Shown here: piece by piece, positions 4,441 to 52,493 of the stretch
Layout: each line of letters opens with the position of its first letter
How positions within the stretch are numbered: position 1 is the first letter of the stretch
Assembly (NCBI RefSeq): GCF_040958095.1
Contig: NC_091219.1
Coordinates: 24,442,202 to 24,506,201 of the forward strand
DNA length: 64,000 nt
Direction of reading: 5' to 3'
Source: Procambarus clarkii
Taxonomy: Eukaryota > Arthropoda > Malacostraca > Decapoda > Cambaridae
Program-made: the position numbers and the translations under genes
Notes under the pieces: generated by a model
Told to the model about the DNA's origin: nothing
The model's input: only the letters and a program-made list of their open reading frames with translations
Database searches by the model: none

Positions 4441-4804
4441 ACTGCCAACAATCGACTACTGTAACCAAGCCTACTAAATAAATATGAAAACCCACTAAAC
4501 ACTGTGTCTCTAATCTACCCAACAACGTAACATAATCGTACGTTACAAACTTATAGTTAGTTGTTTGGACAGTGGGTTGGTTTTTGTATTGAGGCAGGTA
4601 TTTTCTCCCCTGATTCCATGTATGACTAACCATCCTGTGAGATGGGAATATTAGATGAACTTATAACTAGTTTTTGATCTACACTGTGTAATTTTTCATA
4701 TATAATAGGGTAGTAGCACATTGCTGTGTATACCTAAGTTTGTTAATTAAAAAAATCATATCGGGGATGTTGTACAGGCTGCTATCGCGGCGTGTTCACG
4801 GGGG

Positions 4805-5000
4805 TCTGGTAGCTGGGTGAACATCGCGCAGGACTCGTAATTCTGTGGCCCGGGTTTGATTCCCGGACCAGGCAGAAACACATGAGGCAAAGTTTCTTTC
4901 ACCCTGAATGCCCCCTGTTACCTAGCAGTAAATAGGTACCTGGGAGTTAGACAGTTGTTACGGAGCTGCTGCCTGTGTGTGTGTGAAAAAAATAGTAACA
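4805..5000 (+). mobile_element. tRNA-derived SINE, family A
   Basis: An A-box-like region (tagctgggtgaacatcgcgc) and a B-box-like gggtttgattccc are followed by ttctttcaccctgaatgccc and cagtaaataggtacctgg. It ends in a short (gt)n run. Other copies lie at 13896-14128, 39578-39770 and 41098-41271. Confidence 0.8.
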
Positions 5001-5635: not shown

Positions 5636-5658
5636 ATGGTTCGAGCTACGCAAAAGAC
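5636..5658 (+). CDS. CENPA: CENP-A-like gene, coding exon 1 (23 nt)
   Basis: A tiny first coding exon encodes seven residues plus two bases of the eighth codon. The ATG sits in a good Kozak context (gccaaaATGG) and the exon ends at a consensus GTGAGT donor at 5659. Its phase-2 end is completed by the first base of exon 2 to give threonine. The peptide MVRATQK resembles the start of histone H3. Exon 2 contains no ATG, so an upstream start exon is required, and this is the best one found. Confidence 0.75.
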
Positions 5659-8600
5659 GTGAGTTTGAAGCACTCTGTAAAATTAGCCTTTCACTAAAGA
5701 CCAGTGTTGGCGGTTTGATTAGGTGGTTACCTGAGTTTGTGGCTGAAAAAATGAATTCGCCGCCCGAGCCACAGAGGTGTCGTCTTAAGTTCATGTTTGT
5801 TTACCTCGTTCATTTGCATATCCTCGAGTGTCTGGGATGCCTGGACGGCCAGCAGACCTGGAATTAGAAATGGAAAATGAGGACTTTGGGTTAACGGTCC
5901 TTGGAGAGGCTGGGGAAGGGTCCCTGGCCCAGACAACATGCATGACAAGGTTTGGTCCAACTGTCGTAATCATTCCCACTACCTCGCACGGGCTGGCTAT
6001 GGCTGCATAGTTTGTTGTTATAGATTCAGCTACTCGGAACAAGTTCCAAGTAGCACGGGCTATGATGAGCCCGTAAATTACCTGGTACAGGAGCGGGGCA
6101 AGTAGCATGGGCTATGGTGAACCCGTAGTGGACTTACCTGGCACAGGAGCGGTGCTGAATGTGCTGTATGAGCTTCTGTAAATGATGCATAGTAAATGGA
6201 CGGATAGTAAATGAACACAATTAAATATCATCTCATCTTGCAACATTTCTTCAACTTTTTGGAATATTTATCAGTTATACATGACAATTAATTTTAAGCA
6301 CTTCAAAAAAATAAAAAAATATAGAGTATATTTCAAAATAATAATTTAAATTAAAGGTAACTGCCTGGTTGCCGGATCAGTCCGGCAACCAGGAGGCCTG
6401 GTCGACGACCGGGGCCACGGGGACGCTAAGCCCCGGAAGCACCTCAAGGTAACCTCAAGGTAAGGTACATACACATGCTTAAAACTTGTAGTTGTTAATT
6501 GTAAGGTTTTGTTTTAAAACATTTGTGTTTATTATTATTTTGTGCACTTACAGTAAACAGTACTACATTCTTCAAAAAATGTGTTGATTTTTATTATGAG
6601 TTAAGTTAGATTTTAAAATCTGTGTGGAAACTGTCTCCTTTACAAAGTGAGTTGTAGGTTATACCATTCTTGATGCACCACTACACAAATACTTGCCACT
6701 AGATACTAAGTCCCCTAGATACACAACTTTACGCAGTTCGATGCAAGAAGTTTCCAGAGCATGCTGTACTGAAGTAAATTTACAGTACGGTATAGAAATA
6801 TCATGGGTCAACTGCGTCACATAACAATTAGGTTAGGCTAGAATTAGTTTACTTTTATTATACAGTACTGTATTAGGGTTGGTTAGGTTTAGTGACTTGC
6901 AAACAGGCGACTCTCCATTACCATTTTTCTCCCGGAAACGGAAAATAATGATTTAATCCATTTAATTAACCTAACAGTGGCCGAATCATTTAGCCTTTGA
7001 CTTGCCAAATCAGTTACTGTTTTGGCAAGTTCAAACTTTGGCCCTGTTACTCATCCTGTAACTTAGGAAATTACAGTACAGGTATATAACGTATAAAATT
7101 TTTTTTTTTAGAAAGACGAAAATAATAACTTCTACACCAAAAAAAGGTGCGAGAGAACCAATATCAACACCAGCAGGCCTGACTCCATCTACAAAGCGCA
7201 GGAAGTCTAACAGCTTTTATCGTAAAAAAGTGAGTTAATTTTGGTTAATTTAATAATGGTTACTTTGCATTTGCTAATTTTGCATATGCATGTATGCTTC
7301 TTAAGCTGGTGGGTAGCTCCTGACACACCATCTGACTATTAAAATATATTTTCCAACAACCGTTTCAATACAAATATATGATTTGTGCAACATAATCTAC
7401 CTCGAAATCCACCATATTTCTTAACAGTTACATAGGCATGCTATTGCTTCATTCACTACAGTACAGTATTATCCCCATTTCTTCCGACATACACTCCCTG
7501 CCTCTTCTCAACACCATTTCCTCATCTCCCTGATCACACGCACACTTATCCCTGTCTCCTCCATCCCTAACCACCCATGCCTTTTCCTCATCTCCTTCGT
7601 CACTGCTCAAACTCTTACCCCCGCCCACACACACCCTACCCTTGTCTCCTTCCTCCCTGCCCATATGATCATTTCTCCAGTCTCCTCCCTTCCTGGCCAC
7701 ACACACACATACACAGGGAATTGGTGGGGGAATTTTCCCCCATCTCTTCCCTTAATGGCCTTACACACCTTTCAACATGTCCTTCTCTCTTGCCCACACA
7801 TGTCCTTCTCTCGTCTCCTTCCTCCTTGTCCCCACATAGTGTCTTTTTCCCTACCCTATCCACACACTTTCCCCCCCCCCCATCAATGTAACCGAAAGAT
7901 TGTCCAGAATGCAAATCTCTCATCTAAACACATGTTTTGAAAATCAGTATGTACAGTATATGCTTAGAAATAGTTAAAAAAAAATTGACAAAGTAATATT
8001 ATAAGCAGATAGTTACTGAAACAATTAATTCATATCTAATTTCTTACTCAGTCCAAGACCCCCAAGAGCCCTGTTGAGCAGAAGCGAAAGCACCGGTTTC
8101 GTCCTGGAACAGTTGCCTTGCAGGAAATCCGCCATTACCAGAAAGGAGCAGGACTCTTGGTCCCAAAATTGCCATTTTCTCGACTCATCCGGGAGGTCTT
8201 GAATGAGCAGGGCAAGGAATACAGGTTTGTTCTTAAATATTATTTCAATTTCACTCGAGGTGCTGTAACTCGTCAAAATACTGTACTGTAAAATAAATGT
8301 CTTATTTTGCACGTCATTACCACTGTACGGAAAAATATCTATACAGTACTATAATTCCCACATCTGTTTTCTGAAATGTAGGTACAGGTACAGTGTAACC
8401 TTGATTAGGTGAACTACTGGATTTGGAACCAGCCCCAATTTGTTGGAGTGAGGGATTTGTTGCAACCAGAGGCAATTATGTAATGCATTTTTATAGTATA
8501 AATTGAGAATAATTCATTGTTATATACAGTACTACTAAACTGTACAACAATAAATCATACTGTATCATTATATACCTTAGAAAAGGCATACTGTATACAG

Positions 8601-10797
8601 TACGTGTATTTTGCTAGACTCCTCTTGAGGCACCACTTGTAATTATAAACACCTTGTGTGTGACTGTTACAACGGATGTGTCAGTAACTGTAAACAAACA
8701 TTGCTACCCCCCCCCCCTACCTTGCTGGATACCAATCTGAGGGAGGGAGGGGGGAGGCTTTAAGTGAGGGAGAGAGGCAGTGAAGGAGAAAGGCAGTGAG
8801 GGAAGGAGACAGTGAGGGAGGGTGATTTCAATGAGGAAAATTTTAATTTATATCTCAAATGAAGGAAATTTAACATTTTATCCTGTGGCATGATGTGAAA
8901 TATTTCCACCAGTGTGTGAACCGTCCCAACATTATAAGCAAATGCGCACATCCCCCATTTCGGTGAACCAAAATTCGTCGAGTTGAGCGAATAAATCCGG
9001 CCTGAAAAGTGTGCGTCTTAACCGGAGATTTACTGAATCGAGGTTGTACTGTATTTGTGGAACACAGTCAGCATTATTGTCCTACAGGAGTTTGCCCACA
9101 GTGTTCACAACACCATGTATCCTACCAGCTACATAACAATGTTGGCCAGGAGAGTTATGTAGCCCTCTATGCACACACAGTTGAACATGATTACCATACC
9201 ATTGGTAATCACAGTTGAACATGATGGTATTCATGTTCATGGCCAAGGGGGGGAGGGGAGAGGGTCTCCAGCAACACGCTGGCAGGGGGATGTCTCCAGC
9301 AACACGCTGGCAGGGGAAGTGGGGGGGGGGTTCCAGCAACACGCTGGCATGGGGAGTCTCCAGCAACACACTAGTAGGTTTCCACACACAGGCTTCAATT
9401 ATAACAAGCCTTATCAGACGGATATTAATCCTATCTTGTAACTCAACTTGGCCATCCAGGGATACATCAGTTCAATCACCAGTACTTCACTAAGTATCAC
9501 AGACAAATCACAGTCTACACAAACTCGCCCGCGTGTTCCCACTGGAACACGTCTTTAGTTCAGGACTGCCCTGGGTGAACTGATTCCTGTCGACCTAGGT
9601 ACCACCCACATCTCTTCTGAGTAAAAGATGAATAGTAAGAAGGAAACTACACAAGGGTCAATAAGATGACAGCCTTCCACCAGGGCACAGAAAATGGGGT
9701 CGGGTGTGCTCAACAGGTGGTGTTGACATAATCATACCGCCCTTCCTAAAAGAATTGGGGTTGGGTGCTCTCAACAGACGACATCAACGTCGTCACACAC
9801 TTAATGGACCAAATCTGTTACACTGCTGCTTGACCATTTTTTGCGCTCACTTGAGTTTGGCTATTGGCAGAGTATGTCCCATCAGTCCTTTCATTGTATG
9901 CCTTGGTACAGGTATAGTAGGGTGGTATCTTGAGTGCCTTCTGGTCTGCTGGGTTCTGGTTGTCTCTGTCTTATAGTCTTTACCCTCTGGTGTCTTGGTG
10001 GCCTACTACACCATCTCCTCTGCTCAGCAGTATTAGTCGAGGCCATACTTGCAGTGCCCTGTTCTTACAAAGGGTCTCTTAATTATTATGGTGAGTTCTG
10101 AAGCCTCACTTGAGTCTGGATAAGTTGCTTCTCCATGAGATCATTCCTTCTCCTGCATTCTGGTTAGATCAGTGTATCACAGTTTCTCCAGGTGGTTTCG
10201 AGCACCTGTATCTAGGTTTGTTTGCCTGGTTCTCTGGAATTGCCCATTGGCATACATTCCTTCCTGCATTGCCAGTTTGAAGCCTCTCGTGTACTACTAT
10301 TAGGCTTTAAAGTTTGGTCAATTGGCCCTTGAATCTTTTCCCGTCTGATTTCTCTGATACAGTATTACAGGTACTTCTTCGTCTTCAAGTGATTTGCATT
10401 AACTCCTCAAGGAAAGACAAAAATGTGCAAATTTATAAATGGAAATAGTTTATGAAATACCCTGTACAGTATTTGAAGAATTAAAAGTTTGTGTAACAGT
10501 TACTTATTTAAGGTTAAAAAGTTCTATGTATTTGGCATGATTTTACCTTATTAATTTAAAGTGTATCTCTGGAATCTAATGTGAAATTCTTTGCCATTTT
10601 ATTATAAAACGTGTATAAAAAGGTATCCTTTCCTTTACAGAATCCAGACCTTAGCACTAATGGCTCTTCAAGAAGCAGCCGAGTGTTATATTATTGGATT
10701 GTTGGAAATGGCTAACTTATGCTCCATTCATGCCAAAAGAGTAACCATATACCCTCAGGATATGAAGTTGGTTCGTCGTATTAGAGGAGATTGCTGA
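5636..10797 (+). CDS. CENPA: Centromeric histone H3 variant (CENP-A/CenH3-like), four exons
   Basis: Joined coding exons 5636-5658, 7112-7229, 8052-8224 and 10641-10797 give 471 nt, 156 residues plus stop. All introns are GT/AG and phases match (2, 0, 2). Residues 1-60 are a basic tail with an H3-like start, five S/T-P sites and a KRRK basic patch at 36-39. Residues 61-156 are a histone H3 fold: [10 protein letters not shown] at 61-70 (alpha-N), [10 protein letters not shown] at 86-95, [10 protein letters not shown] at 110-119 in alpha-2, IHAKRVT at 134-140, and RRIRG near the C-terminus. It is too divergent, and too intron-rich, for a replication H3. QEAAE and KLPFSRL resemble CENP-A more than canonical H3 (QEASE, KLPFQRL). 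Known role of the family: replaces H3 in centromeric nucleosomes and nucleates the kinetochore. Oddities: loop 1 has the same length as H3 (many CENP-As are longer), a proline occupies the position of the usual arginine before KLPF, and the C-terminus is very short. The alternative is another divergent H3 variant. H3-fold identity is near certain, the centromeric role is inferred. Confidence 0.85.
6014..6160 (-). mobile_element. SINE-like repeat C, two partial reverse copies
   Basis: Within CENP-A intron 1, two adjacent reverse copies carry gcacgggctatggtgaaccc and ggtacaggagcgg. Family as at 2244-2345. Confidence 0.6.
6361..6468 (+). mobile_element. SINE family A, 3' tail only
   Basis: The tail contains aggcctggtcgacgaccggg and ggacgctaagccccgg, ending in a duplicated cctcaaggtaa. 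The tRNA-related head is absent. It sits in CENP-A intron 1. Confidence 0.65.
7112..7229 (+). CDS. CENPA: CENP-A-like gene, exon 2 (N-terminal tail)
   Basis: The exon follows a run of T ending in AG (7110-7111) and stops before GTGAGT at 7230. It encodes residues 9-47, rich in K, R, S, T and P, with TSTP, ISTP and [10 protein letters not shown] motifs. These look like proline-directed kinase sites and an RRKS basophilic (Aurora-type) site, as seen in other CENP-A tails; this is inference. Confidence 0.8.
7470..7880 (+). repeat. Pyrimidine-rich degenerate minisatellite in CENP-A intron 2
   Basis: Irregular units built from tctcctccctgcccacacac recur every 30-40 bp. Overlapping ORFs here are low-complexity artefacts. 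Confidence 0.6.
8052..8224 (+). CDS. CENPA: CENP-A-like gene, exon 3 (histone fold, first half)
   Basis: The acceptor is TTCTTACTCAG at 8041-8051 and the donor is GTTTGT at 8225. It encodes residues 48-104 and two bases of R105: end of tail, alpha-N helix, alpha-1 and loop 1. Two more S/T-P sites (KTP, KSP) precede the fold. This is the exon that most clearly marks the protein as an H3-family member. Confidence 0.92.
8391..9051. mobile_element. pogo/Tc1-like MITE in CENP-A intron 3
   Basis: The element starts CAGTGTAACCTTGATTAGGT and ends with the inverse of CAGTACAACCTCGATTCAGT. It has TA on each side (8389-8390 and 9052-9053). About 17 of 23 terminal bases match. It has no transposase. The same terminus occurs at 22668-22735. 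Confidence 0.65.
9238..9372 (+). repeat. Minisatellite, 4 units (ctccagcaacacgctggca)
   Basis: Four copies of a 30-37 bp unit with G-rich spacers lie in CENP-A intron 3. The cagcaacacgctgg core is itself partly palindromic. Confidence 0.75.
10641..10797 (+). CDS. CENPA: CENP-A-like gene, exon 4 (histone fold, second half, stop)
   Basis: The acceptor is TTTCCTTTACAG ending at 10640 and the stop is TGA at 10795-10797. It encodes residues 106-156: alpha-2, loop 2, alpha-3 and a very short C-terminal tail ending RIRGDC. The CATD-equivalent region (loop 1/alpha-2) spans the exon 3/4 junction. Confidence 0.92.
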
Positions 10798-26900: not shown

Positions 26901-29900
26901 GTCGTGGCATAGTCAATTAAGGCGCTTCTGGGATCATCCCGGGCTTGGTCCGAACCCTCATCACGGCCCTTGTGGATTTGTTAACACCTAATAATGTCAT
27001 ACATTTTTGGAATACTGTATTACCAACATAACAAATTCCATGACATATAAACATAGAAGAAATAATTCAAAATTTAAAAGCAAGCAGTACAATGCTTTTA
27101 ATAAAGCTAAGCATACACAAATATGAAAATTTAAAGTTTGGCAGGATTTCAAAGTTCTGTACTATACAATACAATACTGCATTACAATTAAATCACATAT
27201 CTTCTGAAAAAGGAAAAATGGAGGATCTTTACCAAGTTGCCAGCTTCCTGCCCCCCATTGTGGCCACTAGAGCGAGAGCGTGGCCTTCAGGTAAGACAAC
27301 AACAACAAAAATATCAGAGCACCTAATTAGCTCTTGGAGGAATGGTACCCTAAATGATAGGGTTTGGTTAATTCAGTACTGTATTTGTTTACTGAGTTTT
27401 TGCCATGTGATCCCAGAATATTTTATCTGAGTTTTGAGTGGATTTTTGTTGTCGTAAGATTTCTTATTGGGGATTGTTATTCAGTGATGCAAAGCAAAAG
27501 CATGTTTAATTTACAATAATACAAAAAGTTGAAAGTTAAAGAAAAATTGCAGGGCATAAATTTATGCCCCTAGAGCTAGAGCCGTGGAAGGTGTAGGATG
27601 TTGACTCCTTTGTTATTTAAAAAAAAAAAAGAGCTTATTTCAGTTATTTGAAAATTTTGGGATAGGAAAGATGCCCCAATCTTGAGTGCATTTTTTTTTT
27701 TTGTGATTATTGAAACCTTATTTGCTCCTGCCCTTTTCTGTGAGAGACTCAAATTTTCAGCATCTTATAGTCAGGGTAGACCACAAGGCTGTTTGCTGTG
27801 TTGTCGCTGTGCAGAATTTTGAGAGAGCTACCGAGGCTGAGCTACCGCAGTTCAACCCTTGAGCTGTGCTTGCAAGGGTTGAACTTCGGCTCTTTGGTCC
27901 CGCCCCTCAACTGTCAATCTACTGTACTGGTGTGCAGGTTCCTGAGTTTATTGAGCTGTTTCATATCTATACAGTGGCACCTCGACTTATGACTGCCCCT
28001 ACTTATGAATTTTTCGAGTTACGACCCCAATTTTATAAAAAAATGTGACTCGACTTACGATCTTTGCCTTGACTAGCAACTTTGTTGATACAGGTATGGG
28101 TCAACCGAGCGCATGGTTCCTGGTGGCATGGGCAACTCCGCCTCAGTTTACCACAGCCGCCCACTAGTGACGATCGCGCTTGTAAAGAATTTAATTGTTT
28201 TTGTGCTTTTTTTGTTTTTGGAACATAAAAGTAATTATATACTGTATCCTGCCATGGGTCCCAAGAAAGTCAGTGGTAAGGTTCAACCTAAGAAAATTGT
28301 TGTGAGTAGAGGCAGTAGAGAATGTCCCTTCCTCATTAAGAAAATGTGTGAAGTATGCGAAGAACTGCAAAGTTTTGTTGAAAAAACTCGTCCAGATAAA
28401 GCTGTAGCAGGCCGTTGCATTGACCTTTTGAATGACAAATGTGATGCCTCACTACTGACATATGTTAAAATGTAGTGAAAAACAAGTGTCTTTAGACAGA
28501 TTCTTAGCAAGACAAGCAAGCAGTGAGACACAACCAGGTCCTAGTGGTATGCCTGCAAAACGTAGGATAGAGAGAGTACCCCCCAGAAAAGTCATCATTG
28601 CCTGATGTTATCATGGAAAGGGACTCCCCTTCTAAACAGTAACACCTCTCCTCACCTTCCCTCCTCTCCTTACCAACAAAAGTCCTCAATAAAGGTAAGA
28701 TGTACATACTGTATTGTAGCTAGTACAAAAAAAAAAAAAAAAGTGGTACAGTATTCAGTATAAAATGTATTTTTAAGATAGTATTTTTGTGGAACATAAT
28801 TCGATTAACATTATTTCTTATGGAAAAATTTGTTTCGAGTTATGAATTTTCGAGTTACAACCTGTCTCTGGGAACAGAATAAATTCGTAAGTGGAGGTAC
28901 TACTACATTTGAAACTGCATGGAATCAGCCTCCACCACATCACTTCCTAATGCATTCCATTTACTAACTATTCTGACACTGTGAATGCATCCAACTGTAT
29001 TCTTGAACTCTGGTGGCTTTTTCCCCATGGGTTATTCACTCAAACTTTATCATTATAGTATTTCTGTTTCTTGCATCAAAGCTGGGTTTTTTTCCAAGAG
29101 GCACCGGTAGGAATATGCCCTGGGAAAGCTACTGACAGCAGCTCAGAAATCAAGCGTCAAACATAATGAAATACCCAATTTTTTAGGTGGCCTCAATAGC
29201 TCTCTGTAACCATCCCTTCTTTGTCCTCCTTTTCCACGAGGATCGGGTGTGTCGGATGGTGGTGCTCGAATGAGTGTGGGGGCTAGCTGGTCCCCTTGGG
29301 TGACCTGAGCTGCCACATGGTGGCACACTTAAGCACTAGTGCAAGGATAGTTGGCAATAGGTGACTTACCTCTTGCTTGTTTCATTCTTCACTAAGATCC
29401 CAGAGTTTCAAAGAAATGTACAGTATATCCTGTTTAGTAAAGGTTGTCTCTGATACCAGAGTGTGTTTGTTTGGTTGTTTATTTCTTTATTTATTTGTTT
29501 GTTTATTTTATACTAAAACTTGAGCCAACTTCTAAACACATCACTAACTCATATGAGATGAGCTATAAATAAATAAGCATAAGGAAAAAATTATTTTTAT
29601 TAGCAAAACTTGCAAATATTTGACTTTCACATTTAAGGGTTTCATTTTACTGCAATATGGTTCACCCTGTGGTTTCCCATAGCTGGGGAAGGGATGGTTT
29701 AATGATGTTTGCTTAGTCCAACATTTGCATAACTCCCGGGTACTTACTTACCGCTAGGTAAATAGAGGTATCAGATGATAGTAAACACTGCCCAAATCCT
29801 TTAGTATTACTACAGGAATTAAACCCAAAACAGCTGTGACCCAACTGCACTTTATGCAACACCATAAATGGTTGTATTTAATATTTCACATGCAATGAGA

Positions 29901-46640: not shown

Positions 46641-47276
46641 CTTGTAAATTTGTAAATAATAACATTTCTCCCCTCGAATCCAACACGCCTCCCTACAGAA
46701 TTTTGTTTGGAGTCTTTGCACCTCGTGTTCTTTGCCAAGCCCCAGAATTCTCCCGCCAACCCCCGGCTGACCGCCATGTTTTAAAGGCGTCGGTGCAAGT
46801 TCGGTGTTTACAGTGAGGTTGTTTTCCCCCGATACTTTTCAGAGATTTCCCCCAGGTAAAGGCCAAAATTTCACTTCTTCTCTGGGGGAATATTCATCGA
46901 GAAATATAGATTTTTTCCTTGTTTTACGGGAGTTTCCTGTAATAAGAAATATTGCTCGTTCGTTCGGGACTTTGGTGGTAGTCAGAGAACGTCTTTCCCT
47001 CCCCTCTAGACCTAGCCCTAACCTTCACCTCTACTCTTCCCTACATGCTCAAAAATCCCGCCCCCTACTTCACACCCCCACCTGGCCATTACCCTCCCCA
47101 CCTGCATCTCATTAGTGGAATGCGCCGGAGTCAGTCAGCTGTCGTTCATACTCCCTCGCTCCCCCACACATACACGGCATTTTATCGAGAACACGGAAGG
47201 TGTGATGGCCCAAATGGCTCCCCCCCTCCTCCCCCTTTGTCATACAGCCGGAGGGGTGTGGGTAGCTCCCCCCCTC

Positions 47277-48018
<742 letters not shown>

Positions 48019-48259
48019 CTCACTAACAATCACCACTGCTGGGCTACAAGTACCCCCAGCTAGGAGTCTACACCACCTGCTGACGTAGAGCTGACTAAAT
48101 GTAAACTCTGCCACCAGAACTATTCACATACTCTGCTTCATTATATAATCAAATGCGAGAAAAATCGCGGAATTCAGAGACAACACCATCAATGGTGTTA
48201 AGGAAATGAGTAAGTACTTTCTTCATTAGGATGTGTTACCTTAAGTCTTAGCCAAGTAT

Positions 48260-48261
<2 letters not shown>

Positions 48262-48346
<85 letters not shown>

Positions 48347-48347
48347 T
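48262..48347. repeat. (TA)n microsatellite
   Basis: About 42 units of AT. Confidence 0.97.
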
Positions 48348-48714
48348 TCTGCTCCACCCACGTCCTTGCCTCCCGCGCCCTCTATGGACACCGCCAACAT
48401 TAGGCAGGCGGACATTTGACAGAATATAGATGATATAGATTTTCTGGGATCAAAGCGACGTGAAGGGGATTGATCAGGGTTCGTGTTGCTGGTGGTTTGT
48501 TTGGTCCTGTGAAAGGTGGTTCCTCTGGTTTTGTCTGTGTCATTCATGGGAGAGGGGGGGGGAGTTTAGTTATTATGCACCACATACCCATCTGGTGGGG
48601 GGGGGGGGTTAGGGTTACAGAGGCACATAATGGGTTCAGGAACTGAAGCCCCATAGTTCGTTTAGTGAGTACAAGTGATAAGATTTAGTAGGAAGGATGG
48701 TTACGCAAGTAATA

Positions 48715-48830
48715 ATAATAATAATAATTTTTATTTACGCAAAGGTACTTACATAAAGAGATTTTACAAAGTTTGTTGGCTTTATAGATAGAGCTAGTAC
48801 ATACAATGCCTAAAGCCACTATTACGCAAC
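48715..48830 (+). repeat. Interspersed repeat H, copy 2
   Basis: (aat)n then cataaagagattttacaaag and gagctagtacatacaatgcc, matching 2497-2600. Confidence 0.6.
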
Positions 48831-48934
48831 GCGTTTCTGGCAGGTAATAATCCTATAGTGCTAGTTAGACAATTTTAGCGCGCACACACATACACACACA
48901 CACACTACATAAAAAATCCTCAGGGGTATTGACA

Positions 48935-49240
48935 GGGTAGACAAGGATAAACTATTCAACACTTGTGGTACGCGAACAAGGGGACACAGGTGGAAACTGA
49001 GTACCCACATGAGCCACAGGGACGTTAGAAAGACCTTTTTCAGTGTCGGAGTAGTTAACAGGTGGAATGTATTAGGCAGTGATGTGGTGGAGGCTGACTC
49101 CATACACAGTTTTAAATGTAGATATGATAGAGCCCAGTAGGCTCAGGAATCTGTACACCAGTTGATTGACGGTTGAGAGGCGGGACCAAAGAGCTGAAGC
49201 TCAACCCCCCGCAAGCACAATTAGGTGAATATTAGGTGAG
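48935..49240 (+). pseudogene. LINE C-terminal end and 3' tail, uninterrupted copy
   Basis: The plus strand reads LFNTCGTRTRGHRWKLSTH, MSHRDVRKTFFSVGVVNRW and DVVEADSIHSFKCRYDRAQ, then a stop and the aagctcaacc...caagcacaattag tail and (ca)n. This copy shows the intact order of the element that is broken at 58265-59350. Confidence 0.8.
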
Positions 49241-49614
49241 TATACACACACACACATACACATTTCATCCACTCGAGTCATAAGAGCCTCCAACCACAGA
49301 CCACCAGAGCGGTAGCAGCTGTAACCACTGAGCTCCTGAACACACCACAGAGAGAGAGAGAGGATCTCAAACAGACACAACTGGTACCCCCTCCCCCCCT
49401 GGGCCTCTAGGCCTCCCCTGGGGTGGCACCTGAGCACCCCGGGTATCAGGTGATCCACGCCCCAGTCATATCAAGTGTTAAACAAGATAAATGTGGATTG
49501 TGTCCCTTCAGCCACTGGGTGTGCTGGGGGTGAATATAGCCTAAGCTACTCTATCCCTTTGAGATGTATTTTATTGTCTCAATAAACGTACTTGAAGTTG
49601 GTGTGCTCAGGAGC

Positions 49615-49765
49615 TCAGTGGCGAGGCGTGGGGTGAGGGCACGCCACCTCTGGCGAGGCGTGGGGTGAGGGTACGCTACCGCTGGTGAGGCGTGGGGTGA
49701 GGGCACGCCACCACTGGGGAGGCGTGGGGTGAGGGCACGCCACCACTGGAGAGGCGTGGGGTGAC
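49615..49765 (+). repeat. Minisatellite, ctggtgaggcgtggggtgag unit
   Basis: Four to five units of about 34-35 bp with gggcacgccacc. Confidence 0.8.
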
Positions 49766-49874
49766 ACCTGCAGGAAGACACGGGTCGCTCGTCACCCCAT
49801 CACACTGGAGTGACAGGCCAGGAAGTCTCTCATTCCTGGCGGGAACTTTCGACTGAATTCTATACGATGTCTTT

Positions 49875-49975
49875 CAGTTTACCCGAGGGCCACCATCTCT
49901 CTAGTGGCCTCGACGAGGACAGGAAGCCGGTGGCTTGTCAGAGGTCCCTTCCACCTTCCCTTGAAGGATCTTGTA
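49875..49975 (+). repeat. Interspersed repeat E, copy 3
   Basis: tttacccgagggccaccatc, agtggcctcgacgaggacag and ggcttgtcagaggtccctt directly precede the 32-bp minisatellite. Confidence 0.65.
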
Positions 49976-50706
49976 CACGAGCCAGTGTTCCATACTCTAC
50001 AAGTGCACAAGAGCCAGTGTTCCATACTCTACAAGTACACAAGAGCCAGTGTTCCATACTCTACAAGTGCACAAGAGCCAGTGTTCCATACTCTACAAGT
50101 ACACAAGAGCCAGTGTTCCATACTCTACAAGTGCACAAGAGCCAGTGTTCCATACTCTACAAGTACACAAGAGCCAGTGTTCCATACTCTACAAGTACAC
50201 AAGAGCCAGTGTTCCATACTCTACAAGTACACAAGAGCCAGTGTTCCATACTCTACAAGTACACAAGAGCCAGTGTTCCATACTCTACAAGTACACAAGA
50301 GCCAGTGTTCCATACTCTACAAGTACACAAGAGCCAGTGTTCCATACTCTACAAGTACACAAGAGCCAGTGTTCCATACTCTACAAGTACACAAGAGCCA
50401 GTGTTCCATACTCTACAAGTGCACAAGAGCCAGTGTTCCATACTCTACAAGTGCACAAGAGCCAGTGTTCCATACTCTACAAGTGCACAAGAGCCAGTGT
50501 TCCATACTCTACAAGTACACAAGAGCCAGTGTTCCATACTCTACAAGTACACAAGAGCCAGTGTTCCATACTCTACAAGTACACAAGAGCCAGTGTTCCA
50601 TACTCTACAAGTGCACAAGAGCCAGTGTTCCATACTCCACAAGTGCACAAGAGCCAGTGTTCCATACTCCACAAGTACACAAGAGCCAGTGTTCCATACT
50701 CCACAA
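49974..50706 (+). repeat. Minisatellite, 32-bp unit, about 23 copies
   Basis: The unit is gtacacaagagccagtgttc plus catactctacaa, with gtgcac/gtacac variants that alternate in the first six units and then form blocks. It has no stop in any plus frame, so three long ORFs overlap. Confidence 0.96.
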
Positions 50707-51419
50707 ATGCACAAATACAAACATAATAGCTGCTATGAAAAACAAAACAAAACACACCCACCTCCCGTAAAACAACTCTAAACTCCGAAAAACTCAAGCG
50801 CTTCAAACACAGATAAACACCGCTTGCTAACACCAACAAACTACTCCAATAAAAGAACTTCAAAATCTCGCAAAAACACACAAATATAAATAACCCGCCG
50901 CTTGAAGGATTTAGTGGAGGACCGTTCCGAATAGGCTACCACAGACGTCCGGATGCGAAACTGAATTTGTCGGAAAACGGGGAAGTTTCCCGAGCATGTT
51001 GTGTTCACTTTGGAAAACTTGGGGTAAAGTTAATGGCTGAAGAGGAGCCGGGCAGTGAATTCTTCCTCCCTGGAGACTGTCGGGGAGTTTATTGTGTTTG
51101 TTCTTAAGTGGAGCTTCACCTAGTGTCCAGATATGGTAAGGATTTGTACCTTGTTTATCTGTTTGTTTTGGTTTAGCCCGTTATCCCAGGGCAAGGAAGG
51201 ACGCCTGGGCACGAATCCTTAACTGTTATTCCAACAGTAACTGGGAACTTGGTTATAAATTCATTGGCGGATTGTATTCCAGGGAAAACTACTAGGGAAA
51301 AGACTTAATGTGAGCGGGTGGCCTTTAAGACCTCGAACAACACTGCGAAATCTGTTGTGTTCCAACCAGTGTGAAGACAAGAGGAGTAAGACAGGGTTCA
51401 ACCAGCCGTGGGAACACTG

Positions 51420-51970
51420 GTCCCAGTGTGAGGGCGTGGAACAGGACCTGCAGTGTGAGGGCGTGGAACAGGACCAGCAGTGTGAGGGCGTGGAACAGGA
51501 CCAGCAGTGTGAGGGCGTGGAACAGGACCAGCAGTGTGAGGGCGTGGAACAATACCAGCAGTGTGAGGGCGTGGAACAGGACCAGCAGTGTGAGGGCGTG
51601 GAACAGGACCAACAGTGTGAGGGCGTGGAACAGGACCAACAGTGTGAGGGCGTGGAACAGGACCAACAGTGTGAGGGCGTGGAACAATACCAGCAGTGTG
51701 AGGGCGTGGAACAGGACCAGCAGTGTGAGGGCGTGGAACAGGACCAGCAGTGTGAGGGCGTGGAACAGGACCAACAGTGTGAGGGCGTGGAACAGGACCA
51801 ACAGTGTGAGGGCGTGGAACAGGACCAACAGTGTGAGGGCGTGGAACAGGACCAACAGTGTGAGGGCGTGGAACAGGACCAGCAGTGTGAGGGCATGGAA
51901 CAGGACCAACAGTGTGAGGGCGTGGAACAATACCAGCAGTGTGAGGGCATGGAACAGGACCAGCAGTGCA
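51420..51970 (+). repeat. Minisatellite, 27-bp unit, about 20 copies
   Basis: The unit is cagtgtgagggcgtggaaca plus ggaccag, read as a nine-residue QCEGVEQDQ repeat on plus. Two plus and three minus frames are open. Variants (caa/cag, caatacc) follow a non-random order. Confidence 0.96.
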
Positions 51971-52493
51971 CGACACCTAGTATAAAAAGACCAAGAATGA
52001 GTACAGCTTCATGAGAACACAAACATAAGAAATTTGTAAATTAAATAAGGTGTAAGGGCAAGAACCGACGGAAGCTCCGCCACACCCAGACCAGAAGGCA
52101 AAAAACAGGAACGGAACAAGTTATGAAAGCATGGATAAGAGAGAAAGAGAAACATTCTCACTGGACGATAAGGGTTAGTGAGAGTGACATAAACGCGCGA
52201 GTCCAAGAGGTCTTTACAATAGAAAAAGGGAAGCGCCCTAAATTGAGAGGGAAATTGTCAAGTCAAGTACCAATGGAGAACTTTGAGAAATGAATGATGC
52301 ATTTGCTGCAGTTGAACACAACAACATCCTAGGCTACGATCCCTCCAGAGAAGCTAAAAGAGTGAGCTAAAATTTTGTATTGATCCCTTATTGAGATGTA
52401 GAACATCACTAGAAAACGGATTAACTAACAGAAATCTGGAAAACTGGCAATGTTTAAAAATATAAACAGACAAAGCCTCTAAACATCAATGTA

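Follow-up and report, generated by a model that had tools for sequence, protein, structure and literature searches.

The gene described here encodes a divergent histone H3-fold protein of Procambarus clarkii that probably works as a centromeric H3 of the CenH3/CENP-A type with a short loop 1. As judged from its sequence, it is a CenH3-like variant with a loop 1 of H3 length, whose formal membership of the CenH3 class is not established. A first-pass annotation of the same DNA had named it the centromere-specifying histone. In favour of that claim are an intron-bearing and divergent H3 gene with no close paralogue among the matches listed, a tail that is not that of H3 and three residue diagnostics of CenH3s; against it are a loop 1 without the extra length of the published criterion and trees that place it between H3 and CenH3 with neither side supported, and for these two reasons the candidate is not filed here as a full CenH3 member.

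The window, by which we mean the whole stretch of 64,000 nucleotides that was analysed, corresponds to C70:24442202-24506201 in a 4.03-Gb genome of 2308 contigs. On its + strand lies the gene, with four exons (23, 118, 173 and 157 nt) that make up a 471-nt coding sequence for 156 amino acids, and with introns of 1453, 822 and 2416 nt that have GT..AG ends in all three cases. The coding part of exon 1 (5636..5658) starts with an ATG at 5636 (surrounding sequence GCCAAAATGG; a stop codon precedes it in frame) and covers residues 1-7 plus two bases of codon 8 before a gtgagt donor. Exon 2 (7112..7229) encodes the N-terminal tail up to residue 47 and exon 3 (8052..8224) the end of the tail, alpha-N, alpha-1 and most of loop 1. 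Intron 3 (8225..10640) interrupts codon 105 inside loop 1 in phase 2, and exon 4 (10641..10797) supplies the end of loop 1, alpha-2, loop 2, alpha-3, the C-terminal RRIRGDC and the stop codon, which ends at 10797. Pfam PF00125 (Histone) matched residues 34-153 with 124.1 bits and an E value of 4.8e-36, which excludes a chance match. Solved H3 chains in the PDB matched as well (179 chains, best 3.7e-36), the alignments of the best 60 of these 179 starting at residues 46-60 and reaching 155. The four-exon gene for a 156-residue H3-fold protein that the first reading had proposed is thus present. It is an intact H3-fold gene, neither a canonical histone nor a broken copy.

Elsewhere in the window, a tRNA-like match at 4804-4874 (Rfam RF00005) scored 32.4 bits, barely above the cut-off of 29, and is possibly a tRNA-derived repeat. 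Dense minisatellites occupy 47274-52022 (37-bp x16.4, 32-bp x23.1 and 27-bp x20.2), and the stretches 49975-50714 and 51424-51968 among them have several open frames, giving long repetitive ORFs. At 28113-28475 a 120-aa ORF with the basic stretch MGPKKVSGKVQPKK had no Pfam match; Pfam searches on 5 of the 37 window ORFs gave 0 matches.

Within the fold the candidate shares 58 of 95 residues with the H3 of its own genome (61% kept) and is changed at 37. By segment the changes amount to 3/14 in alpha-N, 7/15 in alpha-1, 6/7 in loop 1, 11/30 in alpha-2 and 0/5 in loop 2, in agreement with the diverged loop 1 and alpha-2 of the first-pass annotation. The tail, which had been called novel, indeed contains none of the five H3 tail motifs (ARTKQ, ARKS, GGK, GGVKK, KAPRK). 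With 37 of 95 fold residues changed and these motifs missing, neither the near-invariant fold nor the tail of a canonical H3 or H3.3 is found. Residues C110, H113, A114, R116, D123 and L126 (H3 numbering), which we take to be those of the H3-H3 interface or four-helix bundle, are kept, and A127 is replaced by V. Of 14 listed basic residues that presumably lie on the DNA side of H3, 10 are kept and R49, R53, R63 and K122 are lost; K79 is likewise lost. The proline P85 that had been singled out does stand at H3 R63 but is no peculiarity, as Drosophila CID has a proline there in the same context. Similarly, C156 lies six residues past R150, where RRIRG starts, but the end of the protein (RRIRG followed by DC, versus RRIRG followed by ERA in canonical H3) falls short of the H3 end by just one residue.

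Comparison with one H3 copy of the same genome (L001) showed that 18 of the 58 codons for shared residues are identical and that third codon positions agree at 30 of 95. Synonymous sites thus appear saturated although 61% of the residues are conserved, a pattern that points to long maintenance under selection; on this reading the gene is old and maintained.

The consulted sections of two studies (PMC4359364, PMC7598501) give as CenH3 diagnostics a phylogenetic group of their own, an extended loop 1, a divergent tail and the absence of Q, F and T at H3 positions 69, 85 and 108, Met counted. In the candidate these three positions (Met counted) are occupied by S, I and A, respectively, and the histone fold expected of a CenH3 is present by both Pfam PF00125 and the PDB H3 chains. 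Q, F and T are retained in the H3 of the same genome, in H3.3 and in H3.Y (PDB 5ay8), the last of which we take to be a non-centromeric H3 variant; Cse4 and Cnp1 also retain T at 108. The third position is printed as 118 in the consulted section of PMC4359364 versus 108 in that of PMC7598501. In our alignment the candidate keeps the H3 residue at 118, and since the RVT/RIT threonine at this position is kept in five CenH3s, we adopted the 108 reading.

The five solved CenH3s compared were Drosophila CID, human and chicken CENP-A, Cse4 and Cnp1, and the comparison covered the 74 positions at which four or all five of them have a residue. At nine positions all five are unlike H3, and the candidate is changed at every one of them, versus 2 of the 18 positions that are unchanged in all five (hypergeometric 1.8e-4, Fisher 1.2e-5, both post hoc figures). 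Several of the nine lie next to the gap at loop 1. Five of the nine positions are changed in H3.Y too and two in H3.3, and the five in H3.Y imply that part of this signal is tolerance. Beyond position, 13 of the 37 changed residues carry the same replacement as one or more of these CenH3s; matching replacements numbered 26, compared with a mean of 10.0 after shuffling (p 0.0026, 20000 shuffles), and include G59, P63 and S68, which are common to the candidate and CID. The F84 position has no W in the candidate, whereas W is present in four of the five CenH3s and V in CID. By overall identity the candidate is closer to H3 (58/95) than to any of the five, the values being 53/95 for Cnp1, 49/92 for Cse4, 39/74 for chicken, 31/64 for human and 35/91 for CID.

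The fold phylogeny that the first-pass annotation had named as a check placed the candidate between H3 and CenH3, with neither side supported. In the nine-row tree it lay between the two groups, the split of CenH3 plus candidate from H3 receiving 58/26 and that of H3 plus candidate from CenH3 40/26. Without CID (eight rows) the corresponding values were 56/0 and 64/49. In a ten-row tree, one H3 row of which was composite, the candidate was on the H3 side (73/87), and a CenH3 grouping was not rejected (AU p 0.197); we rely on the other two trees, from which the composite row was left out and which are neutral. By path length it is closest to H3 in all three trees, without support; CID was the sole other arthropod CenH3 sequence in these trees.

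In a genome search with the whole protein, H3-like copies filled the best 150 of 1063 matches and the candidate gene itself was absent from them; searches with the tail and with exon 4 alone were used in its place. The first 60 residues gave one real match, exon 2, at 73.4 bits (all nine candidate matches scored), which supplies the genomic copy count suggested in the first pass. A second tail match, on contig C66 (56%, E 2.2), was taken as chance. Exon 4 matched itself at 104.6 bits and other loci at 67.6 bits or less with 65-67% identity, nothing lying between the candidate and canonical H3 among the best 150 of 980 matches. Among the matches listed, the candidate has no close paralogue in the assembly. 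A search for a relative in viral_contigs gave 17 pattern matches, of which 0 were confirmed.

We also sought a second and better CENP-A gene, which the first-pass annotation had put forward, alongside non-centromeric localisation, as evidence that would count against its claim, and among the best 150 of 975 matches there was none. Pieces of human CENP-A (alpha-1 to alpha-3) and chicken CENP-A (alpha-2 to alpha-3) gave no outstanding match; most matches tied at 65.2 and 63.6 bits, respectively, and the top ones, at 66.1 and 64.5 bits, were on contig C740 (best 150 of 975 for each query). The C740 match was rejected as a second CENP-A, being an ordinary H3 carrying one change. By sequence similarity these searches argue against another single-exon gene in the genome that is closer to CENP-A. 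Their reach is limited, since the best 150 of 975 matches are taken up by canonical H3, and a more divergent or intron-split second CENP-A could lie below these. A Pfam Scm3 search of the genome gave 0 matches with no control detected either, and a CENP-C_C search gave 0 matches with controls detected in 8 of 14 and 0 above the cut-off; given introns and poor controls, both nulls are uninformative.

Canonical H3 itself gave at least 150 matches without inner stops (best 150 of 4036) on many contigs (e.g. C71, C57, C16 and C49), frequently with a spacing of about 8 kb that resembles dispersed repeat arrays; none of these best 150 of 4036 was on C70. Some canonical H3 copies are broken: in L012 (C83:24010132) the frame is shifted and the tail contains a stop, in L022 (C83:24036728) the first half is out of frame, and L024 (C23:44115374) has two stops.

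Loop 1 of the candidate has 0 extra residues relative to H3, versus 2, 2, 2, 3 and 6 in the five CenH3s, so that the longer loop 1 of the published criterion is lacking and the missing insertion reported in the first pass is confirmed. As intron 3 lies inside this loop, the claim of its length depends on the splice junction. The candidate might accordingly be a CENP-A whose loop 1 is as long as usual, if its transcript is spliced at another junction or includes a micro-exon from intron 3; the short loop would then be an artefact of the gene model, an explanation that overlaps with the preferred one as regards function. The exon 3/4 junction is predicted from DNA alone, and an acceptor 18 nt upstream would preserve the frame. 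With an approximate home-made matrix, applied to sites within 45-80 nt, the exon 4 acceptor in use scores +8.5 versus -8.3 for the upstream one, and each other in-frame donor/acceptor pair listed contains a worse site. Alternative junctions were rejected for these far lower scores, approximate as the matrix is; we regard a long loop as improbable and the short loop 1, under the predicted splicing, as likely. The segment presumably read by a chaperone is then changed in letters and not in length, six of its seven loop residues differing from H3.

With a loop 1 of H3 length, the candidate could instead be a non-centromeric replacement H3 variant (e.g. germline- or stage-specific) that diverged from H3 independently and resembles CenH3s at tolerant positions. 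Its proximity to H3 by path in the three trees and its alpha-N and loop 2, which are nearly those of H3 (3/14 and 0/5 changed), would agree with this, as would the five changes that non-centromeric H3.Y has among the nine positions, several of which are thus simply tolerant. Against it, H3.3 and H3.Y lack the three CenH3 residue diagnostics that the candidate shows, none of the five H3 tail motifs is kept, and the genome would be left without a visible CenH3, none better being found among the best 150 matches per search; we therefore hold a replacement variant to be rather unlikely. Far less probable still is that the gene is a pseudogene, a retrocopy or an artefact of the assembly. The genome does contain damaged H3 copies (L012, L022, L024), but a gene with three introns cannot be a processed retrocopy, all four exons have open frames and GT/AG splice sites, and third positions agree with H3 at 30/95 while 58/95 residues are kept. 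The predicted ability to pair like H3, the lack of H3 tail motifs and the rewritten loop 1 together fit a variant nucleosome ignored by ordinary H3 readers, features that make a CENP-A type function the most likely.

We infer deposition, CENP-C binding and centromere position for the candidate as follows. CenH3s localise to centromeres, recruit the kinetochore and are deposited through the CATD by a chaperone such as Scm3, HJURP or CAL1. In the candidate the retained four-helix-bundle residues C110, H113, A114, R116, D123 and L126 would allow it to pair with H4 and with a second copy of itself, and it would replace H3 in centromeric nucleosomes. The altered loop 1 and alpha-2 would be read by a chaperone of the Scm3/HJURP type and, as loop 1 is no longer than that of H3, this recognition would need to rest on residue identity and not on extra length. 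The resulting nucleosome would recruit CENP-C and the kinetochore, and ordinary H3-tail readers should not bind a tail without the five H3 motifs. Whether this is an animal centromeric histone with an H3-length loop 1, in which chaperone and centromere recognition rely on loop 1/alpha-2 residue identity alone, appears to us an evenly balanced question.

To identify CenH3 genes in new genomes, residue diagnostics are used together with a longer loop 1, and the candidate shows the former and lacks the latter. Should it be the centromeric histone, the rule on loop 1 would not be general and a centromere-targeting domain could work at H3 length; CenH3s may then have been overlooked or wrongly scored as absent in other lineages. 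The papers listed in our literature search include no description of a decapod CENP-A, and CENP-T is reported from shrimp in the consulted section of PMC12678787. According to the consulted section of a 2021 crayfish repeat study (PMC7859515), a candidate centromeric satellite needs CENH3-ChIP with sequencing for confirmation, and the protein described here, if centromeric, would be a direct reagent for ChIP mapping of centromeres.

With the canonical H3 of its own genome the candidate has in common 58/95 fold residues, the length of loop 1, RPGT and RRIRG; it differs in the tail motifs, in 6/7 loop 1, 7/15 alpha-1 and 11/30 alpha-2 residues, in having introns and in copy number, at least 150 copies of H3 being matched whereas the candidate is without a close paralogue (exon 4, best 150 of 980). 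H3.Y is similar in its H3-length loop 1 and in its changes at five of nine positions, but still has Q, F and T at the diagnostic ones. Human (3nqj) and chicken (7bxt) CENP-A, in contrast, have two more residues in loop 1 and W at F84, neither of which is found in the candidate; both share with it L at V89, A at S96 and A at T107, to which human CENP-A adds S at Q68 and chicken CENP-A adds Y at L82, L at F104, S at A111 and Y at M120. Drosophila CID (PDB 6xws) differs in its two extra loop 1 residues, in the lack of RPGT and RRIRG within its residues 130-225 and in overall sequence, only 35/91 residues being common to both. Yet CID is a divergent H3 as the candidate is, and the candidate has CID's G at E59, P at R63, S at Q68, L at V89, L at F104 and M at I124.
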